This document shows positions 5,201-57,327 of a DNA stretch of 64,000 bases, in pieces. Within the stretch, counting starts at the first letter, position 1; each line of letters starts with the position of its first letter. The DNA is from Owenia fusiformis (taxonomy: Eukaryota > Annelida > Polychaeta > Sabellida > Oweniidae): the NCBI GenBank assembly GCA_903813345.2, contig CAIIXF020000008.1:3605341-3669340 (forward strand). The letters are read 5' to 3'. The notes beneath the pieces were generated by a model. It saw only the letters and a program-made list of their open reading frames with translations. It did no database searches and was not told where the DNA came from. A program made the translations under genes and the position numbers.

Positions 5201-8200
5201 GATTTACTCCCAAATAGCAACAATTGACCCAAATACAGTGAGACCTGTCAAATGGAACACCTCTAGAAGAGAAACACCTCTGTTAATGGAACACTTTTTA
5301 GAGTCCAAAGACCAACTGACTTATGTTAAATGAATATATGGAACACCTCCCAAGTGGAACACTTTTTAGAGATACCAAATGTGTTCCACTTAGAAGGGTT
5401 TTACTGTACATTGATCTGTCGATTTTGTCTTGTCATTTGTAAAGACTGAATAAGTGAATTAATCAAGCGTCTTGTTTAAACTCATAACATCTCTAATAAC
5501 AGAGAAACCAGGGTTAATACAATAGATGTATGAAATACAAGTAGAAGGATATTGCATGTTTTGCTATCAATGACATCATTTATTTACTCATCAATTACTC
5601 AATATTTCAGGTTTCTGAGTACAAAATCCTGGACAGAATCAGTAGATTTATAATTCAGGAAACAAGGTGGGCACACATATTGTTTACTCCAAGGTAGACT
5701 GAGGGGCCTGGCTTATATTTTGAACTATTTAGACATAAGCTGACATACTGTTCTACTGTAGCATTGTACACAAAAATGTCCAAATATCTTCCCACAAAAA
5801 TTATACTTTTCGAGACACATTTTTGTCACACACATAATAGAGTCATCTATAATGTAATAAACTACTAACCCTGACCCTACTCTAAGTAATCTATAATATA
5901 GCAAATCTAAAACTAAAACCAGTGACTTGAATCTCCATGTCTGCCAAGGGATATTATAGAGTTCTGTAAGAGAATCTGAAACTATTTTCAGTGAACTTCA
6001 GTTGAATACAAAGGAGGCAGAGCTGCTATGTGTTGAAGCCTATAGACTTTGGGGACACTTCCTGGCATATGGATTAACATCAGAACATTTCCGAGACCTT
6101 TATTCAATCTTCATTACACAGCTACAAAATGTGCAACAGTTGAGTCATGACTGTGAAGGTTATCACCTTGAAAGGGCGGTGGCCATGATAAGACTGTTGC
6201 AAAGTTCTATTGAAGTTAGTGCTACTCATAGAAACCTTGCAGCGAAGTTGAAGAATGAGTAAGTTGTATTGATCACTCATATTGAAAAACATAATTTAAG
6301 GGCATGCTTAAACATTTACTACAATATTCAGGAACTGTATATCCTATGCTTAAATTTTGAAAATTAAGTAAACATAGAAATTAATTAAGACAATCAAAAT
6401 CAAATGTTAATACATTGTTTTACATTAAAGAAATGACTGCATCGATGATACATATGTGTTTATTTTTCATTTCCTACTTCATGCTACTTATGTGTTTTGC
6501 ATTTTTAGGCAAAAGAGTGATGAACCGAAAGAGCCTTTGCCATCCATAGATTGGACACATGCGGAAGGTCTGATTCAACCAATAGAAAGCCTTATGTCAA
6601 AACTTATGAAAGACTTCATGGGACATTTTACAATTAAGAAATACGACCTCTCTCTACTCTCAGCATGTGTCAACTGTGTCGCCACCTATTATGCAAAAGT
6701 AGCAAATCAGGTACTAGATATTTCTTTAATTTTATTTTATGAATAAGATGATATTTGTGACATTCATGTGCCTTACACTCACTGACTGTGTCTGATTTCA
6801 AATGTCAAAATACAAAATATGTTCTCTAACCATCTTTATAGTCAAAACTGACACAATGACGTACATATTAAAGGAAGTTCATGAATTTAAATTGAGGAAT
6901 ACATGCTCTATAAATAAAACTCTAATATGATTATCAAAATAGATGTACTTTTATGTTTCAAGTGGTAACCTCACATACACCTAAGCTTTGATTTATACTT
7001 TAAAGGTGACAGGAGATACGATAGCCCTGCTAAGCCACATTCAGAAAGTAGTAGATGATAATGTTGTGCCACTTCTCAACTCACATGCATTCTCTATGAT
7101 GTTAGGATATCTGAGGTAAGGAACTAACCCATTGCAGAGATTAACATTTACTCATGGTCATAGTTTCCTGATAACATTGATTGGAATATAAATTCAATGT
7201 ACATGGCATTTATTCAAAAATAGATAAGCATAAATTATTGTGTCAGTCAGTTAAAACACATTAGACGGAGTACTCCAAAATACTTAAAACCTTAGTGTAC
7301 TTGTATATCTAGAAGTTCTTTCAGTTGCATCTTAATGTTATGCCTCCAGTGAAAACTCAAATATCTTATCCGGCTTGACATCTTCACAACGAGAGATAAA
7401 CCCAGCACTGCCAGAACTTGCATGTTTGTGTGGCCAAGATGTGGTAGTCCCTGTATTGCAACAGAAAACCCCATACAATACATTTCTAGCTCTCCTACAT
7501 CTGGTTCATTCCTTAGGGAAGATTGATAAATCTGTTGTTCCAAAGGTAGGAAGAATACTGTAACTATATTGTATGTAATTTGAAGTATTGATGATTGACA
7601 TATATAGGAATTGTTTATGGAAGGAGAAAATACTATACTAATCATACATGCACAGAGAACTAATTACTAATTCATTTGAGGACGGAAATAATATACTCAT
7701 ATTTTTACTTATACATTTGTTCTTATACCATATTTTAGTACTAAATCTATGTAACATTTATGTTCTCTCACCTTTAGATGTTTAGCAAAATATTGGATGA
7801 TAAAGATGTTCTGAGCTACACCAGAAGAGTGTGTAAAATTAGAGATGGTGGCTTGGTTTCCCATTGGACAACACGCTTTGAAACATACATCCAGTTTTAC
7901 TTGGCTAAAATGGCAAACATGCAGGTATGAGAATAGTGTATTTTGCAAATATGGGGAATGTGTCTATGGCATGAGCAAGATCAATTTCAATGTTGACTTA
8001 AAGACAAGAGACAGTATATCTTACTAGTCTTTCTTAATTCCTTGATGATATGCTAGGCTAAAAAGCTTTTTTAATTTCACCACCTTGAAGTAATGAAATA
8101 TTGTTAAACCCATTTTTTGTCGCTGGTTGTTGTTGGCATTCTACATTGAAACACTTTAGTTATTGCAACCAAGTGGTTAGTGGTGGCATTTTGTTGTATA

Positions 8201-25137: not shown

Positions 25138-28100
25138 ATGGGCGGGCCACCTGCCCAGCAACCTCAAAATATTTTCAAGGCTGGAGCGCCTAGAACTGGA
25201 AAGAACCAAAAGAAGTCGCAAAGTAAAGATGGTAGATATATTCTTACTTTTTAGGTCATTGTATTTCCATATTTTAAATCGATTATTGTTGAATTTTTGC
25301 CAAGGTAGTTATAATACATTTTCATGTTTTCAAAAAGTTTTGTTACCAAAATCTGATGACAATTTCATCAAAGTGCTGAGTTCAAAATAAAAATTATTTA
25401 TGATTAAGTATATTTTTAATTAAAAAATCATTACATGTTTCAAAACTGAACGATAGTTTTCAATTTTTATGCTTATTTGATATCATTTTAGAAAAATAAA
25501 ATTTAGAGTTACGTGCTAGCGAGACAACCCAAGCTTCAAATACCACATTGGAAAGTATGAGACACCAGCCTTACGAATCTATGATATTTTAGTTGTATCT
25601 TTTTGATTTTTGATCAATTCTAATAAATTCTAAATACGTTTTGAAATGCTATTTTAGTTTTGAGAAGTGAATTGAGATCTATTGAGGTTATCTGTATTTA
25701 TCTTTCATCATCTTACCTTTATAAACAAACAAACAAATCAGCTATTCCCTGGGTTTTTTCAGCTAAAGAATTTCAAAAATTGGAGCGGAAACTGAACCAA
25801 TGTCCCGCTTTTCTTGCCGCTTACTTGGATCGACATCCCGAGGCCCTTAGGAAGTACCTTTCCTCGAGGGAGAATATCCCGGAAGAAAATCTTGGAGAGG
25901 ATGTACAAAGTTAGTATTATAAACTTAGTCATTTCTATGAAATTGATGATGCGGGCCTTATATTTCACTAAGGATAACTCAAGAATTGAGATTTTTTTCA
26001 AGAGATGTATGACACAATAGTATGTGCAGGGCATTCAATAAGAACTGATAAAAACTTTTTAGTTTTTTTCATATTTCTGGTTACCCTCTCTACTGTGCAT
26101 TGTTTAGTAACATACTGATGCACTGTGGCAGTTGCAGTAATGTGCTCCTATGGGAAGGTGGTGATGGGTTGAGTCAAATGTGGTTCTTGATGTATCAGGT
26201 TTACACGAAAAAAGTTTCAAAATGGGCAAGCTAATGTTAATATCGCTTCTCAGCTTTGGCATCAACTTGTCACACATCAATGTTATTTCTAAATCATGAA
26301 AAAACATTGTGTATGTGGCCAACACTTGAATAAGTCATGTAGTGTAATTTGTCATATAGGAATATTTCAGGTTTCATCCAATATTTCTTTTATTGCATCA
26401 ATCTGACTAGAGGGAGCTAAAGCTTTTGGTCGCCCCTGTCTGGGCTTATTTTCAATTGACTTTCTCCATCGGTGACAATGATATATGCCAGGGGTAGATA
26501 TAGTGTCCTTCCCATTAGTTTCGTCCTTTATTGTATCCTGTTTTGATTTATCTTAGAGAACTTGATGCTGCTTCTAATTTGATGCTGAATATAATTGATT
26601 TTCTGTTCAGCAGCCATGTTGTTGTTTACATAATTTATGCTAAGTTCGTGTTATGTAGTTTCTCTCTGATATCATCTGATTTTAAATCGCTCTTTGGTCA
26701 CATCGGAATACCCTGACAATGGCAAAATTAGATACCGTTGTCACAAATGGCGGACATAACTGTCGCTTCAACTCTTTAATCACTTGGTCCTCGTTTCATG
26801 GAACTTTATCGTCGCTAATTCTGTGCATGTATTAAGCTTTTGTAATGGTGTTTTATATGAAATCCCAATTTCTATCAAATGGGGTTGTGAGTCGCCAATG
26901 ACAAAGACAAAAAAATATACAAAGGCAATGGCATATGGTAAGATGTGACAACGACTATGGTGGATGTAAGCATTGGAACATAGGAAAATGACAACGGTAA
27001 ATAGACATTTTGCCGTTGTCTTTATATGTACCGTTGTCGAATCTTACTATTGTCATCCCGATTTTACATCAATTGAATTCTTATGAATTGCTCCTGATGT
27101 CATTTATACATTAACGTTTACCGGTTTATCGGTATTTATTTACCAACTGTCAAAATGGGTTCAAAGAGAAAATTATATATGAAAATGTTCACATTTTAAG
27201 TCTGGCATTTTGATTTTTTCGTGTAGACCTAAAGCACCACGCACGACCTTAGGCCCCGCCCAGTACTCTTCCTGTTAGAGAAAATTCTTTTAATTCTCAC
27301 AGTACACCAGTCCAATACTCAACAATATACAATAGAAAAATAGTCATAAATATAAAAATTAAAAAGTTCCAGCATTCTTATCCGTACGTATTCAGCTTTT
27401 TGCTGAAAAGGGAATGACCTTGTTTTTTGACACTTGTATGAGTCGACTAAATAAAAATTAAGGTGTGCTCAAGTCATTCAAATGAGATAATACAACATTC
27501 ATGATATTCCAATTTAATGGCTTCACTTTCACTTTGAAGGAGCTTTGTAAAAAATGCAAAACTGAATCTAAATAAAACGTTTATACTCGTTCTTGAAATG
27601 TCATATATAGTATCAATTTTCTATTTTTCTGAGACAGATTCTAGTGTTCAGTATTTTAATTGAATATAAGCCTAAGTGGGACTTATTTCGCCTAACACAC
27701 ACCCCTTCGTTAGGGGGGAGGGTATTGAAAAGATCGCTATGGAAATTTTTAAGATAAAATACTTTTCAGCCCAGACTTGTTTAAAACATGACCGAATGTG
27801 ATAATAAAAGGATACTCTTGTAAAGTGCAATATTATAGCCTACATACGTACATGATATGTTATTATGTTTATCAATTTGTATTACTTTGAATTTAGGTGA
27901 CGGCAATGGATCCATTAATTATATAGTCCTCAACATAGGCAACAGTACGCATACCGACCAAAGTCGCCACGATTCACCATCGCATGTCAGCACGATTAAG
28001 GCAAATGGAGCGAACAACATTCAGGTCGGATCCGGAAATAGTATCGTTGTACCGCAACAGATAGGTCTTAATCCAAGCTTTAATGATGAGCAGGAACATG

Positions 28101-29542
28101 AAGATGCGGATCACGTTGACGACGACGACGCATACATCTTGCTGGAGAAGCCCCCGTCCCAAAACATCCTTGACCGCATGAAAACCATTTTGAAGTGGGG
28201 TAAATCCAATAATGTTCCAGCCAATAAACGTTGTGCATCTGCCGGTGATGTTTCCGCACGCATAGTACAACCAACGACAAGAAACAAGACGAGCACACAG
28301 AGTTTGCCTCCTGGGATGGAATCGTTGGATCTAATTTCATTTGACGAACCACCACCACCACCACCGCCGCGCCTCAACAGAACCTTTCACGACTGCAGTC
28401 AAGACAAAGATGCGTCACAATTTCGAGACATTTCAAGTCGATATCCAACCCACCACGGTTCGACACAGTCTCTACCGGTGAACGCAACACAGGCTGCAAA
28501 CAGTATTTGGGGATTTAAAGATGAGTTCATGGTAGGTACACCTCATTAAGACTCATAATATTTCAACGTAATTTCTGAAACGTATTAATCCAAGCACCCT
28601 ATTCAACCCCGTGATAAAACGAATTCTGCAATATCTTATATTTAGACAAAGCTCTCTTTTAAGAAGTGTAGCAACAAATACAAATAAAGAGTATATACTT
28701 GTAAAAGCCTTGAAATCCTTTCTGGGCTTTGCTGAAATATATACAAAGTTCTAAGTTTTTTTCCACAGGAGATGCTGAATAATGTTGCAGTTGTTTTAGA
28801 AATTCGAATTATCAAATTCAATATTTCTATTTATTTTCGTCTCAGATTTGATAGACATAGTTTCCCCCTGATGACCATTGTGTTTCATGGATTACGGACT
28901 TTGCAAATGGATGTTGACCCTTTGAATTACCTTGTCTATCCCACATCACTTGAGACTGAATGCTTTATTTTTTATGAGTACTAGTCTCTACAACGATTTT
29001 TGATGTCATGTGTATTGTCAACATCCCGAGGCCTTAACATGTGTATAGTTATTACTTCGGTATGAATGAAATGTTCCTTGCTTCTGCAGCTTGTCCTGGG
29101 ATTGGAGGGGAAGTGGGTGTTCGACATTATTTTTTCACGTAAAATCATACTTTTGGGGTATATATAGTACTTAGGGTCTATTTTTCTTATGACAGGTTTA
29201 CAGAGTTTCTATGCTAAGTTTTTTAAGAGTTTTTGGTCCTCTCTCTCTTTGTCACCTGTGCTTAGATATTCAATTCAAAATTAAAACTATGATCATTCAA
29301 ATGTAATCTTTTATTTACTTTAGGGAGCGTGTGCGACTCCATACGAAAATGGACTCCGCAAGCGTGCTTCGAATACAGTTGCAAATCAACAGTCGACGGG
29401 TTACCACGTGACTAGCTGTGGTCGCTTCATTAGTTCTCCTGATGTATCTTTGCCAGATGAGTCAAGCAGGGCGTCCCGCTGCAGGCGTCCAATTGCACAA
29501 GGTGCCCAAAGGCATTTTCCTGTTCAAGAAACGGCTATCTAA
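25138..29542 (+). CDS. Protein with RHIM-like amyloid motif, proline-rich (four exons)
   Basis: Exons 25138-25231, 25763-25909, 27897-28531 and 29324-29542 (TAA 29540-29542) join in phase (1, 1, 0) to 364 residues. N terminus: Q/P-rich, then basic (KNQKKSQSK). Exon 2: a helical segment CPAFLAAYLDRHPEALRKYL (about 44-63), reminiscent of the N terminus of PDE11-type phosphodiesterases (remembered resemblance only). Exon 3: I-Q-V-G-S-G-N-S-I-V-V (122-132, DNA from 28019) fits the RHIM consensus [IV]-Q-[VILC]-G-x-x-N-x-[LIM] of RIPK1/RIPK3/TRIF/ZBP1 and related amyloid signalling motifs. A weaker relative, IVLNIGNSTH (from 90), precedes it. An acidic run, a DLISFDE phrase, a seven-proline run and two STQSLP repeats follow. 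No kinase, TIR or death domain is visible. Likely role: an adaptor or regulator assembling by amyloid contact (inference). An alternative last exon may exist at 28770-28984. Confidence 0.8.
28770..28984 (+). other. Possible alternative terminal exon of the RHIM-like gene
   Basis: A strong acceptor (TTTTTTTCCACAG ending at 28769) opens an in-phase frame of 70 residues after GAG, ending TAG at 28982-28984. Joined to exon 3 (phase 0) it would give a different C terminus. The downstream exon at 29324 has more typical coding composition, so this is a second choice. Confidence 0.3.
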
Positions 29543-32136: not shown

Positions 32137-32945
32137 GGACAGGTAGCAATATTCATTGGTTTTGCATTCTTAGCACTTTGTTTAATCTCCTCGGGACTAT
32201 CCTGGCATTCGTTTATAATTTAATTCATTTCGACAACTAAATATGTAACTTATCCATTATGTGCTCGCGTATCTCCAAGAAGCTATTCGAATTGCATGTG
32301 CAGTTTCTCCTCGGTCTCTTCCTGGAATTTTTCATTATTAATTCAGGTTATATATTTCGACATCTGATTTGATAATTTATCCATGATGTGCTCGAGGATC
32401 TCCAAGAAGCTATTCGAATTGCATGTGCAGAGTCTCCTCGGTCTTATCCTGGAATTTTCTATCGTTAATTCAGATTATAAATTTCGACACCTGAATTAAT
32501 AATTTATCCATGATGTGCTCGAGGATTTCCAAGAAGCTATTCGAATTGCATGTGCAGAGTCTCCTCGGTCCTATCCTGGAATTTTCTATTATTAATTCAG
32601 ATTATATATTTCGACACCTGAATTAATAATTCATCCATGATGTGCTCGAGGATTTCCAAGAAGCTATTCGAAGTACATGTGCAGAGTCTCCTCGGTCCTA
32701 TCCTGGAATTTTCTATTATTAATTCAGATTATATATTTCGACACCTGAATTAATAATTTATCCATGATGTGCTCGAGGATCTCCAAGAAGCTATTCGAAT
32801 TGCATGTGCAGAGTCTCCTCGGTCTTATCCTGGAATTTTCTATTATTAATTCAGATTATATTTCGACAACTGAATTTATAATTCATCCATGATGTGCTCG
32901 AGGATCTCAAAGAAGCTATGCGAAGTGCATGCTCATCATAGACCC
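32137..32945 (+). repeat. 127-bp satellite, about six units
   Basis: The word CTCGAGGATCTCCAAGAAGC or a close variant starts at 32264, 32391, 32518, 32645, 32772 and 32897, a period of 127 bp (125 at the end). A degenerate unit precedes the first. Each unit contains ATTCGAATTGCATGTGCAG-like, TCCTCGGTC and TTCGACA-CTGAATTAATAAT-like blocks. A related 35-bp sequence, CGTAAGAAC.AATGTTATTAC, lies on both sides (32038 and 33179). Confidence 0.9.
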
Positions 32946-42339: not shown

Positions 42340-45300
42340 ATGAAAGCTTCATTGCTCCTTGGTATTGTACTCCTTGCATCACAGGAGGTGCATGTACTAT
42401 CCCAGCCGCCTGGTGGGATAGAGGGACTCCCAGATGTGATAGGACAAGAAGGTATTTATTATGAAAAAGATATGCAATATACATGGGGGTCAGAAAATGG
42501 GAGCCATGTCACTATTTTCCTCAAATCGTTGTCATTTTAGGAAATTACTCCCTGATATCTGGGACATTTGTACATCGTTCAATCTCCAACCAACTTGTTC
42601 TATCTATTTACGATCGGGCTGAAAGTCACAATGTTACAGCACTTTAATAACATGCTCCAGGTGGCAACTATCGCGCTGTAGACAAACCTGCCCACGTCAT
42701 TTTTTATCTGCCATACCTAGAATATATTGTTTAAGTGCAGCATTTCAGTATTTTAATCAACCAGCATAATGTGTTAAATGTATATATAGGATAATGGACT
42801 TTTCAGAATATTATCGTTGTATCTTTAATATGATAGGCACAATGTCGAGTAAAATTTTACATTATCAAAATATAATCTAATATAACTATTGCATAATCTC
42901 ATTTTCTTCATTGTAGCGTGTTTAGACTTGGTGTTCATGTTCGACATATCGTGCTCTGTCAGTGAGGCAAACCAACTCAAAGCTGTTGAATTTAGCAAGC
43001 GTCTGATAGAAGAAATCAGAATGAGAGAGGTATGCAATACTGTAACTTTTTAAGTAACTGATGCAATTTATGTCAACATTGTCACATTTGAAATCAGAAT
43101 GGCCTGAAGAGGGATCACACCAGACTGTAAGTTTAAGTATCTTTGCTTTTTATTTAGAAACCCGAAGGATTTAGTGTTAAATTAGCGGCAGCACTTTTTG
43201 AAGGTGATGTAAACAATGCATTCTATCTGAATGCAGCTAACAGTCGAGCTGAAATGCTTGAACTACTCGACACTCTCCCCGAGCTTATAGAATCGACGTC
43301 CATTCAATGTGACACCATGACCCAGGAGGGAGTTAAGGCTCTGTACGAAACATATTTCACGGAAGCAAACGGAGACAGGAAGCAATTATACAGGGATCAG
43401 GAACTATACCAGAACGTCGCCATATTTTTCACGGACGCAAGGACCCATCCAAGAAAGTATGCATTGGATGGAAGGGCTCTTGACAAATATTTGAAGAGAG
43501 CCGCGGAAGCTAGAATTACGAACTATGTCGTATTGCTTGATAATAAGTAAGTAGTCCTACGTCGATGAAAAATCCGTGACAACGTATACACAAAATGTGA
43601 TTTTTTAAAAAACCTTTGAAAACTAGGAAACCAGTTAGACTCTTAATGTCAAAATAAAAAAAATGTATAAAATCACGCGTGTTAGATGAAAAATTACACT
43701 TGACATCACCCAAGATGCCATTTATAAGCCATTATAGATGAACTCTCCCGCGCACCATCTTTTTGCGCAGTTTCCATTATCTACATGTATTTATCTGAAT
43801 AGACATCGATATGATGAATTTATTGACCTAATCATATCTAACACCTTGATCCATCTTGATGTAGAATAGCAAGGCGACCTTTCACATATCCATTTAAGAA
43901 TGCTTGTGTATTGTATACGTGTATTCTTTTACAATATTTTAATTGGGACATTTGCATAGACTGGCATGTTCTGCCTTTGCCTTTACACCGTTGGTTATTT
44001 TCTTAAACAATATTTGTCTATAAACAGTCGCACGGAAGAAGATGCCAACGGGAACGAAGTGACAAAGCCACCTCTAGATCATCTGAAGATAACAGACAAT
44101 GAGCCAAAAAGACTGTTTGATATTAGAACTGGTAAAGATGTGGAAGCAGAGGTGACAAAATTGGCAAAAACTCTTAACGAAGAATATGTCTGCCAGACAA
44201 GTGTCGACAGAGGTACTTTACTACTACTACCATCTATAGTATATGGTTTAACACAGTTCAATTTATTTACTAAACTTACTATTTGTCTCATGATAATATG
44301 GTCCTTTTTATCTGGAAATGATTTTAAAATATACTGAACACTCTACCACATCGATGACGATCTATACTATTTCATATTTGACTACTAGGCATGACTAATA
44401 TCAGTGTAAAATTGTTGAATATAATTCTGACAACTGTATATTTTCATTTAAACCCATAGTGTCGTCGGTTAATCGAATTTTAAGCTACGTTCACACCAAC
44501 GGCGAATGCCACGCTTTAAATCGGTGAGCAAAGCGCCGTCATTTTTGTCATTTTTGTTCATACCAACGGCGCTTTGATGGCGCTTTAAAGCGGCTTGTAA
44601 AGCGGCACCAAAGCGTAACAAAGCTTGATTAAAGCGTCTGGGTCGTAATAGGTCGTAGAAAAGCTCGGAGTAAAGCGGGATATTCGGCAAGAGCGCCAAA
44701 AAATTTTAAACTGCTTAAAAATTTTGGGCGCTCTGTTACAAATTGATTAAAGCACCGAGAGCGTATCAAAGCTTAACAAACCGTAACAAAGCTCAGAAAA
44801 GCTTGATTTAAAGCGTAGGAAAGCTTAACATAGCTCTGATAGGTTCCTCACGCTTTGATCCCGCTTTGACCAGGCTTTGTTACGCTTGAAATCACGCTTT
44901 GGTAAGCTTTGATAAGCATTATTACGCTTTGATTCGATAATGACGCTTTAAATCAGGCTCTGATACGATTGCCAAGCTCTGTTGTGCATTGTTACGCTCT
45001 GTTAAGCTCTGTCACGCATTTGAAAATGTCGACATCGCCGATTTCATGCCGCTTTTGATCCAATGACTATATAAAGATGCAGTAGATTCATAAAACCATT
45101 GCATCTTTGACTCGAGAACATGATGGCAGAACAACAAGATCCATAAATTCCAGATGGACCAGAGCATGACCTATCTGAAGGAACATGATGTTTGTCGCAC
45201 GGCGTGATATAGCGTGTGGAAACTTGCCAAGTGTAACAAAGCCTAGCAATGCGTTTTAATCCTTGATTAAAGCGTCTCAATTCGTCGGAAAGCTTGAGAG

Positions 45301-46658
45301 TCCTTCATGAAAGTGTAGCAAAGAGTGTCAGATATTGATGAAAGCGTCTGACCTCGTGTCAGATCTTCATGCCAGATCGTAGCAAATCTTGAGACATCTT
45401 AACGAAGCGTATCAAGTGGTAACAGACAGTGAAGAGACTGGGGTCCCCGCTTTGAACCAAGCTCTGTAAAGCTTTCCTACGCTTTGGGTCAACCTTTGCT
45501 GAGCTTTGTTACGGTTTGTTAAGCTCTCGGCGCTTTTATCAATTCGTAACTGAGCGCCCAAAATTGTTAAACAGTTTAAAAAATGTTGGCGCTCTTGCCG
45601 ATTATCCCGCTTTTCTACGAGCCTTTCTACGACCTATTACGACCCTAACACTTTAATCAAGCTTTGTTACGCTTTGGTGCCGCTTTACAAGCCGCTTTAA
45701 AGCGCCATCAAAGCGCCGTTGGTGCGAACGTAGCTTGAACAGTTTTAATTTTTGCGCTCTTGCCGAATATTCCGCTTTACTCCGAGCTTTTCTACTACCT
45801 ATTACGAACCCGACGCTTTAATCAAGCTTTGTTACGCTTTGGTGCCGCTTTACAAGCCGCTTTAAAGCGCCATCAAAGCGCCATTGGTGTGAACGTAGCT
45901 TTAGAAAAAATCGAAAGAGATCTCCCTCAGATATATTTTTGAGATATGTGCATTATTTAAAAATTATTGCCAATTTCTAATTTATTGGACTTTTGTGTAT
46001 GTGAACGCTTTGTGGGTGACATAATGATGTTATTCTTATAGCTTGTGCCGACATTACATTTGCTTTTGATGTATCGTGCAGTATAGACAAGGATATCAAG
46101 GAGCTTTACAGATATGTGGCGAGTCAAACGTACAATGAACTGATCAACAGCGCCGGAGACATTCTCGTTTCAGCAATTGTGTTTGATGTCACGTCCCGCT
46201 CTCAGTTCTATTTTGACACATATGGTAACCGGGAAGTCAACATAAGTAAAATAGACAACGCCCTTAGAAACCTAGCCCTAGAAGAAGTAAAGTGTCGCAC
46301 CATAACGGAGAAACTTTTTGATGAAGTGAATCGTAAGCATTTAGGAAAACATGGAGATCGAGATGATATCCAAAATATTCTAGTATTATTCTACGATGGT
46401 ATGACGTCACCGTTGAGGCGCAGAAAAGAGACCATTGCAAAAGCTTTGGAACTGAAGAAAAATGGTGTTGATATTCATCTGGTTAGACTAGAAAACAATA
46501 GAGGCAAAGATGGAGACGAGGAATTCCAAGAGATAGCAAGTCCAGATCGATTGTTTCCGTTAGAATCTGGAAATGCACTCACTGATGAAAACAAAGACGC
46601 AGTCGTGTTAGAGCTTTTTGATAAACTTCGTCTATATGCTTGTGAAGATCAGGTTTAA
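42340..46658 (+). CDS. Secreted protein with two von Willebrand factor A domains
   Basis: Exons 42340-42451, 42917-43029, 43158-43546, 44028-44212 and 46042-46658 join in phase to 471 residues (TAA 46656-46658). Residues 1-22 are a clear signal peptide (MKASLLLGIVLLASQEVHVL). Domain 1 (about 39-240) opens CLDLVFMFDISCSVS; domain 2 (about 268-465) opens CADITFAFDVSCSID. In both, D-x-S-C-S is a MIDAS D-x-S-x-S metal-site motif with cysteine between the serines. Later strands show VAIFFTDARTHP and ILVLFYDGM. No transmembrane, protease or collagen part is visible, so it is probably a small extracellular adhesion or matrix/immune protein (inference). I chose ATG 42340 because a splice acceptor lies one base before it; an in-frame ATG at 42289 would fall in the 5' intron. 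The last intron holds a 1.4-kb DNA transposon, and an LTR element starts 13 bp after the AATAAA. Confidence 0.88.
44483..45900. mobile_element. 1.4-kb hairpin-like DNA element, TTA target duplication
   Basis: Ends are AGCTACGTTCACACCAACGG and the inverse of AGCTACGTTCACACCAATGG, with TTA on both sides (44480-44482, 45901-45903). The two halves mirror each other imperfectly over roughly 400 bp, and terminal segments are duplicated inside (a further end-like word at about 45720-45735). The body is packed with AAAGCTT/AAAGCG words. The 3-bp TTA duplication suggests PIF/Harbinger or a relative (inference). No transposase. Confidence 0.8.
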
Positions 46659-55854: not shown

Positions 55855-57327
55855 TTAATACGCACTGGCATGCCCCCCCCCTTGTGGGCCCAGAAAAAAT
55901 GCTTTTACGTACATATTGTGATTGAAACACTTATTGGATAACTTTAAAATTCTCCGGTTAGTCATGTTGTTTTCTTTGAAATAATGAATCAAGTGTTTCA
56001 CGTGCGATGAATTTGACTTGACACCAGCATTGTTGACACTGGTACTGTAGACAATATTTTCTCCAGAACTACCAGTTTCAAGTCCTACTAACAAGCGGTC
56101 AAAGTCCTTGATCTCAGGTAATCCAGTGTAGAAGGTAACATCACGTGGTGGCAAGTTGTCAATTGAAAAAACATCTTTGGATATCGTTTCATGAGCAGTG
56201 GATAGTTCACTTTTTGATTTGGCAAGTTCATTTTGAAGCTTTTTTATTGTTTCATCACGCTCGAGTAAGTCATCTTCTAACTCTGCAGTTCGGTCTTGCA
56301 ACAATTTGATAGTAGCTGATAAGTGTTTATTCACCGATTTATTTTCCTCAAGCTTTATTTTAATGGCTTCAAGTGTTCGATTAAGCAGACTAGATTCCAA
56401 TTTGAGTTTGCTAAACTCAATGTTCAATCTTGTTTCATCAACTTGGTTTTTGACAGGTGTGGTCTGAGCAGTTGATGTATTTGATACATCATGGATGGGA
56501 GCTGTTGTTTCACTAAATGAATCTGAACTAGAGATTGAGTCTGTATCTGTGTCATTTTCTGATAGAGCATCAGATTCTAGGGCACAGTTCACTTGCCCTG
56601 GTGCCGATACCTTCCTAGACATCCACTTGTTGGGGCGTCTCTCTTTAGCTGGGGTATATACATATTTCTTGTCCAAGTTTAGCCAGCAATCAAAGACTGA
56701 GGGGACTGCATCTTCTTTTAAGTAACATCTGTTGGAGTATCCACCGGTATATCGATAATCCTCATCTTTGAAATGGAGTGAACACACCACTGTTCCAGCT
56801 GATATCTTGAATGTGTTGTTTATGTCGCGTTTGATTTTGACCACCCATTGTTGTCTACGCTTGGGATCACTGGGAAAGCTGGAAATAAAAAAATGGAACA
56901 ATATATTTGTAAGTTTACATTGTGACATCAATCAGTCAATAAAAGTAATTATATAATACATAAATATTTCTAGAAAGAATCATAAGGTACATGTACATGT
57001 ATGAGAACATTCTACAAATAAATTACAATAGGCTAATGTACAGATTGTGAATACAATAAAAATAAAAAACAAATGGTAAAAATATCACTCTCTACATTGA
57101 CAATGCAATGTACATGTATGATAAACTGCATTTAATCAGTATTATAGTTTGTGAAATTTTAAATACCTGTGAAAGGTGACCTTTCTTCCATTTTCCACCC
57201 TTGTCCCAGTCTTTGTACAATGTGGCACACAGCAATTTCTGCGATCCTTTTTGATTTTGACATTCTTCCCTTCCAGTACAGTACTTGGGTTTGTAGCTTT
57301 TACAAGGATTTCAATATTGCTGTCCAT
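55855..57327 (-). CDS. THAP-domain coiled-coil protein, transposon-derived
   Basis: Two exons, 57327-57167 and 56878-55855, join in phase to 394 residues. The N-terminal THAP zinc-binding DNA-binding domain shows its C2CH residues (C33, C37, C86, H89), W65, an FPSDP turn and the closing AVPSVF (111-116). A serine/acid-rich linker follows, then a long heptad coiled coil (about 200-292), then a VFSIDNLPPRDVTFYTGLP stretch. In many animal THAP proteins that phrase starts the region before a Harbinger-type (DDE_4) transposase domain (family knowledge). Here the catalytic domain is absent: the chain ends about 80 residues later at TAA 55857-55855, after a run of nine G. It may be a shortened transposase relic, or a domesticated DNA-binding regulator. 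Nuclear, sequence-specific binding is expected. Confidence 0.82.

Follow-up and report, generated by a model that had tools for sequence, protein, structure and literature searches.

A candidate orphan RHIM-type adaptor gene in Owenia fusiformis, in a genome with a RIPK1-like kinase and further RHIM-like genes

Most of what is known about RHIM amyloid signalling comes from vertebrates, the fly IMD pathway and fungi. Here we describe a four-exon gene of the annelid Owenia fusiformis that probably encodes an orphan RHIM-type adaptor. The gene lies within a stretch of 64,000 nucleotides (the window, C8:3605341-3669340 of a genome of 498 Mb in 525 contigs). Its product carries a single RHIM-like core, IQVGSGNSIVV, and the same genome holds a RIPK1-like gene with a RHIM of its own. 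If this reading is correct, the animal has its own RHIM adaptors besides RIPK1, and the immunity of invertebrates would generally include amyloid signalosomes that can evolve.

Results

Gene model

The window gene (25138-29542, plus strand) is a coherent four-exon gene. Three GT-AG introns join the exons into 364 codons followed by a stop, which bears out the 364-residue model of the preliminary description, and the intron phases (1/1/0) are compatible across all four exons. Exon 1 (25138..25231, residues 1-31) begins with the ATG, encodes a basic N-terminus and ends at a GT donor in phase 1. Exon 2 (25763..25909, residues 32-80), with AG and GT borders and phase 1 at both ends, encodes a short part predicted to be helical. 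Exon 3 (27897..28531, residues 81-292), whose previously proposed borders proved exact, is bounded by AG and GT in phases that fit exons 1, 2 and 4, and encodes the RHIM-like core together with a predicted disordered acidic and proline-rich region. It stays open for 211 codons, for which the chance is about 1e-5 to 2e-7. Exon 4 (29324..29542) follows an AG acceptor in phase 0 and encodes a Ser-rich, basic C-terminus and the stop codon. GC content is 46-51% in the exons, against 26-34% in the introns.

The RHIM-like segment, TIKANGANNIQVGSGNSIVVP, occupies residues 113-133 (27992..28054, plus strand, as are all exon 3 features given here), and the core falls at residues 122-132 (28019-28051), where it had been placed before. 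The other landmarks described earlier are likewise present: an acidic run, DDDD, followed by AYILL (28118..28129), a run of seven prolines (28349..28369) and two copies of STQSLP (residues 213-218 and 269-274). A helix is predicted with low confidence at about residues 169-184 (28160..28207).

Elsewhere in the window, a neighbouring gene on the plus strand encodes two von Willebrand factor A domains (43158-43550 and 46020-46658), and the minus strand at 55855-56931 encodes a THAP-domain protein that probably has a coiled coil and may derive from a transposon. Visual inspection shows repeats with a unit of roughly 120 bp at 32230-32930 (tccatgatgtgctcgaggat...).

Domains, relatives and predicted shape

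Pfam scans of the full-length protein, of the region around the motif and of short segments found no family in the 364-residue model. The absence of a kinase, TIR or death domain, claimed in the preliminary description, thus holds in the Pfam scan, and no CARD was found either. Searching the window's own genome with exons 1-3 revealed no paralogue or second copy, and neither exon 3 nor exons 1-2 gave a meaningful match in sequence searches of the PDB.

Single-sequence AlphaFold2 modelling predicts three short helices for exon 2 (mean pLDDT 75), and a fold search with this model gave no significant structural relative (best E 2.0). A resemblance of exon 2 to the N-terminal helices of phosphodiesterases was considered, gained support from no search and was dropped. 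Exon 3 is predicted in the same way to be disordered, except for the low-confidence helix and two short strands, a prediction that is uninformative about amyloid. The most likely layout of the protein, judging from these models, is a short helical N-terminal part, the motif and a disordered tail.

Scoring of the RHIM-like motif

Residues 122-130, IQVGSGNSI, satisfy the core tetrad (V/I)-Q-(V/I/L/C)-G (PMC9444067), followed by xxNx(L/I/M) as in the preliminary description. This loose pattern matches once in the six frames of the window, with 0.05 matches expected in random windows. Across a proteome, about 8 chance matches are expected, and about 0.5 if a preceding N is required; these are rough estimates that combine average amino-acid frequencies with a proteome size, taken as the published gene number multiplied by an assumed mean length of 470. 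The loose pattern alone is therefore weak evidence, and independent RHIMs were sought in the genome.

An ungapped profile, anchored by hand on the core, was built from five RHIM-like exons of this genome and the RIPK1 and RIPK3 RHIMs of PDB entries, leaving the window out. The window segment scores 18.9 bits against it, while the runner-up among 34,830 six-frame segments of the window reaches 5.4 bits, and none of 2000 shuffles of exon 3 attained the score of the segment. Leave-one-out scores of the seven training RHIMs range from 20.5 to 37.7 bits, the lowest value belonging to the RIPK1-like gene of this genome. By these scores, the window motif ranks among the weakest sequences that would still count as a RHIM. 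Per-position scores show that nearly the whole score comes from the 8-residue core; by the same scores the canonical upstream flank I-[YH]-[ND]-[CS] (IYNSxG) is not matched, the window having TIKANGAN. A second RHIM had been suspected in IVLNIGNSTH (residues 90-99, 27923..27952). It scores -9.3 bits, where the core motif reaches +18.9, so it is not a RHIM by score and the idea of paired motifs is not supported.

In HMMER, the outcome depends on the correction for composition. With the null2 correction exon 3 is low-ranked (2.0 bits for the whole sequence, 8.4 for the best domain) because its N/G-rich composition is discounted; without composition correction it ranks first, with E 0.003. A six-sequence profile that includes the window motif matches the RIPK3 and RIPK1 RHIMs in the PDB with E values from 4e-4 to 0.8. 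As for the HMM check proposed in the preliminary description, the RHIM family of Pfam does not report the window motif at E≤10 in either the protein scan or the genome search. The cut-off of this family (PF12721) is 20 bits, and the RHIM of the RIPK1-like gene likewise falls under it, at 16.4 bits. The cut-off is thus non-discriminating here, and we use the label "RHIM-like". Plausible RHIMs, that of the RIPK1-like gene included, are missed at this threshold.

Further RHIM-like genes of this genome

The genome search with the Pfam RHIM family gave two places over the cut-off and three below it, which together supplied the five exons of the profile. Among the three weaker ones, one belongs to the RIPK1-like gene and another sits next to a TRADD-N-like exon in C523. 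At least five further genes have RHIM-like motifs, making at least six with the window gene; coding status was judged from reading frames and neighbouring domains rather than from transcripts. Together with leave-one-out scoring, the presence of these genes supports the RHIM reading of the window motif.

The RIPK1-like gene (C3:21849000-21867000, minus strand) includes kinase exons (E 3e-45), the RHIM-like exon and a Death domain (E 2e-15), and is known as separate exons at this locus rather than as a joined full model. Two RHIM-like exons lie close together on the minus strand of the same contig (C3:19304000-19312000; 24.8 and 16 bits) with the motif variants NVQLGHGNVI and NVQAGNSNQM, and no further domain was identified in that stretch. 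A candidate CARD/RHIM/TRADD-like adaptor is encoded on the contig of the window (C8:31127500-31137400, minus strand), where a CARD (E 2e-10), an exon with NVQIGSDNKI and a TRADD-N-like exon occur in this order. RHIM-like and TRADD-N-like exons also stand in a row at C523:32000-41500 (minus strand). The exons further upstream at C523 resemble, as we take it, an RNF213-type AAA/E3 protein, and two of them had no match in the Pfam scan. Finally, tandem duplicate genes are found at C6:77000-86500 (exons at 1660-2394 and 6441-7262 of that segment). One copy retains the RHIM-like core NIQIGDGNVI (C6:83.6 kb); from the other the core-bearing stretch is gone, with the flanking sequence still similar.

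Counted directly in the DNA, the pattern N-[IVM]-Q-[IVM]-G-x-x-N occurs at 88 places, whereas the reversed pattern occurs at 38 and a frame-shifted one at 100. Repeats dominate these counts, which therefore show no enrichment. When most of the distinct sites were read, real-looking exons with the motif were those of the window, the RIPK1-like gene, C6, C523 and C8:31.13 Mb. A D-x-Y-[IV]-[LV]-like acidic-Tyr motif recurs in four of the RHIM-like genes and was dropped, being too short to test. A search for the MLKL N-terminal domain gave no match, and its control was silent as well. From the sequence evidence, RHIM signalling probably exists in this animal.

Discussion

In the reading that we favour, the IQVGSGNSIVV core and the RIPK1-like kinase's RHIM would stack together as a hetero-amyloid, which would recruit or nucleate the kinase. 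An input or a partner would come in through the N-terminal helices and the disordered tail. The output would more likely be NF-kB or immune signalling than necroptosis of the MLKL type; we prefer it because the C-terminus of zebra mussel RIPK1 activates NF-kB in a RHIM-dependent manner (PMC12119088). That the protein would act as an activator rather than an inhibitor is a preference only. Of this scheme, the sequence shows the kinase and its RHIM, and we infer that they make the contact, form the fibril and give the output. A more specific version can be put forward tentatively, as possible and somewhat short of probable: the protein may be a lineage-specific annelid RHIM-only adaptor, with no other known domain, that nucleates RIPK1 amyloid signalling or modulates it. 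It would then be part of an invertebrate RHIM network of RIPK1-like, CARD/RHIM/TRADD-N and orphan adaptor proteins, of which the papers that we found give no description.

The main rival to the adaptor reading is that an ordinary disordered, N/G/S-rich protein spells IQVGxxNxI by chance and is unconnected with RHIM signalling. The numbers of matches estimated per proteome, about 8 for the loose pattern and about 0.5 for the strict one, leave room for this, the more so as the window protein was singled out because of the motif itself; the non-canonical upstream flank and the silence of Pfam on this protein point the same way. Against a chance origin, plausible exons with a RHIM-like core are present in at least six genes, where the strict pattern would lead one to expect about 0.5, and the window score lies near that of the RHIM of the RIPK1-like gene. 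We regard coincidence as rather unlikely.

A role as a decoy, in which the window protein would cap or sequester RIPK1-like RHIMs and damp signalling as viral RHIM proteins do, is compatible with its anatomy, there being no kinase, death, TIR or CARD domain beside the motif. Herpesviruses have RHIM-only inhibitors (PMC9444067), and the tandem relatives at C6, one of which is without a RHIM core, suggest that genes of this sort do not keep the motif stably. A single-copy host gene with a long tail could, however, equally be a scaffold, and we consider the decoy role improbable.

The proposed adaptor can be set beside several known systems. RIPK1 homologues with a conserved RHIM occur in zebra mussel, Lingula and lancelet (PMC12119088), centrally placed RHIM-like motifs are known in varied architectures (PMC7889193), and a published search of a nemertean genome found no RHIM (PMC9835746). 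Like the proposed adaptor, ZBP1 and TRIF are not kinases and use their RHIM to join assemblies of the RIPK family. The window protein differs from them in having neither Z-alpha nor TIR, a non-canonical upstream flank and a motif that the Pfam RHIM family does not reach; it carries one RHIM only, where the ZBP1 type has more than one. The Drosophila IMD-pathway proteins PGRP-LC, PGRP-LE and IMD are comparable, by description, as invertebrate proteins with a RHIM-like motif (cRHIM) proposed to act in immune signalling; unlike them, the window protein has no PGRP, transmembrane or death domain. The nearest RHIM gene, the two-copy gene at C6:78.7-84.3 kb, has no significant similarity to it beyond the RHIM region, although the two have in common a phase-1 acceptor exon starting DG..S, a RHIM-like core (in one copy) and a later acidic-Tyr stretch. 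In its core, the window motif is similar to the RHIMs of spiralian RIPK1 (zebra mussel and Lingula) and of the RIPK1-like gene on C3. With neither kinase nor death domain, the window gene is not itself a RIPK1-like kinase, and the RIPK1-like protein encoded on C3 is its likely partner in the same organism.
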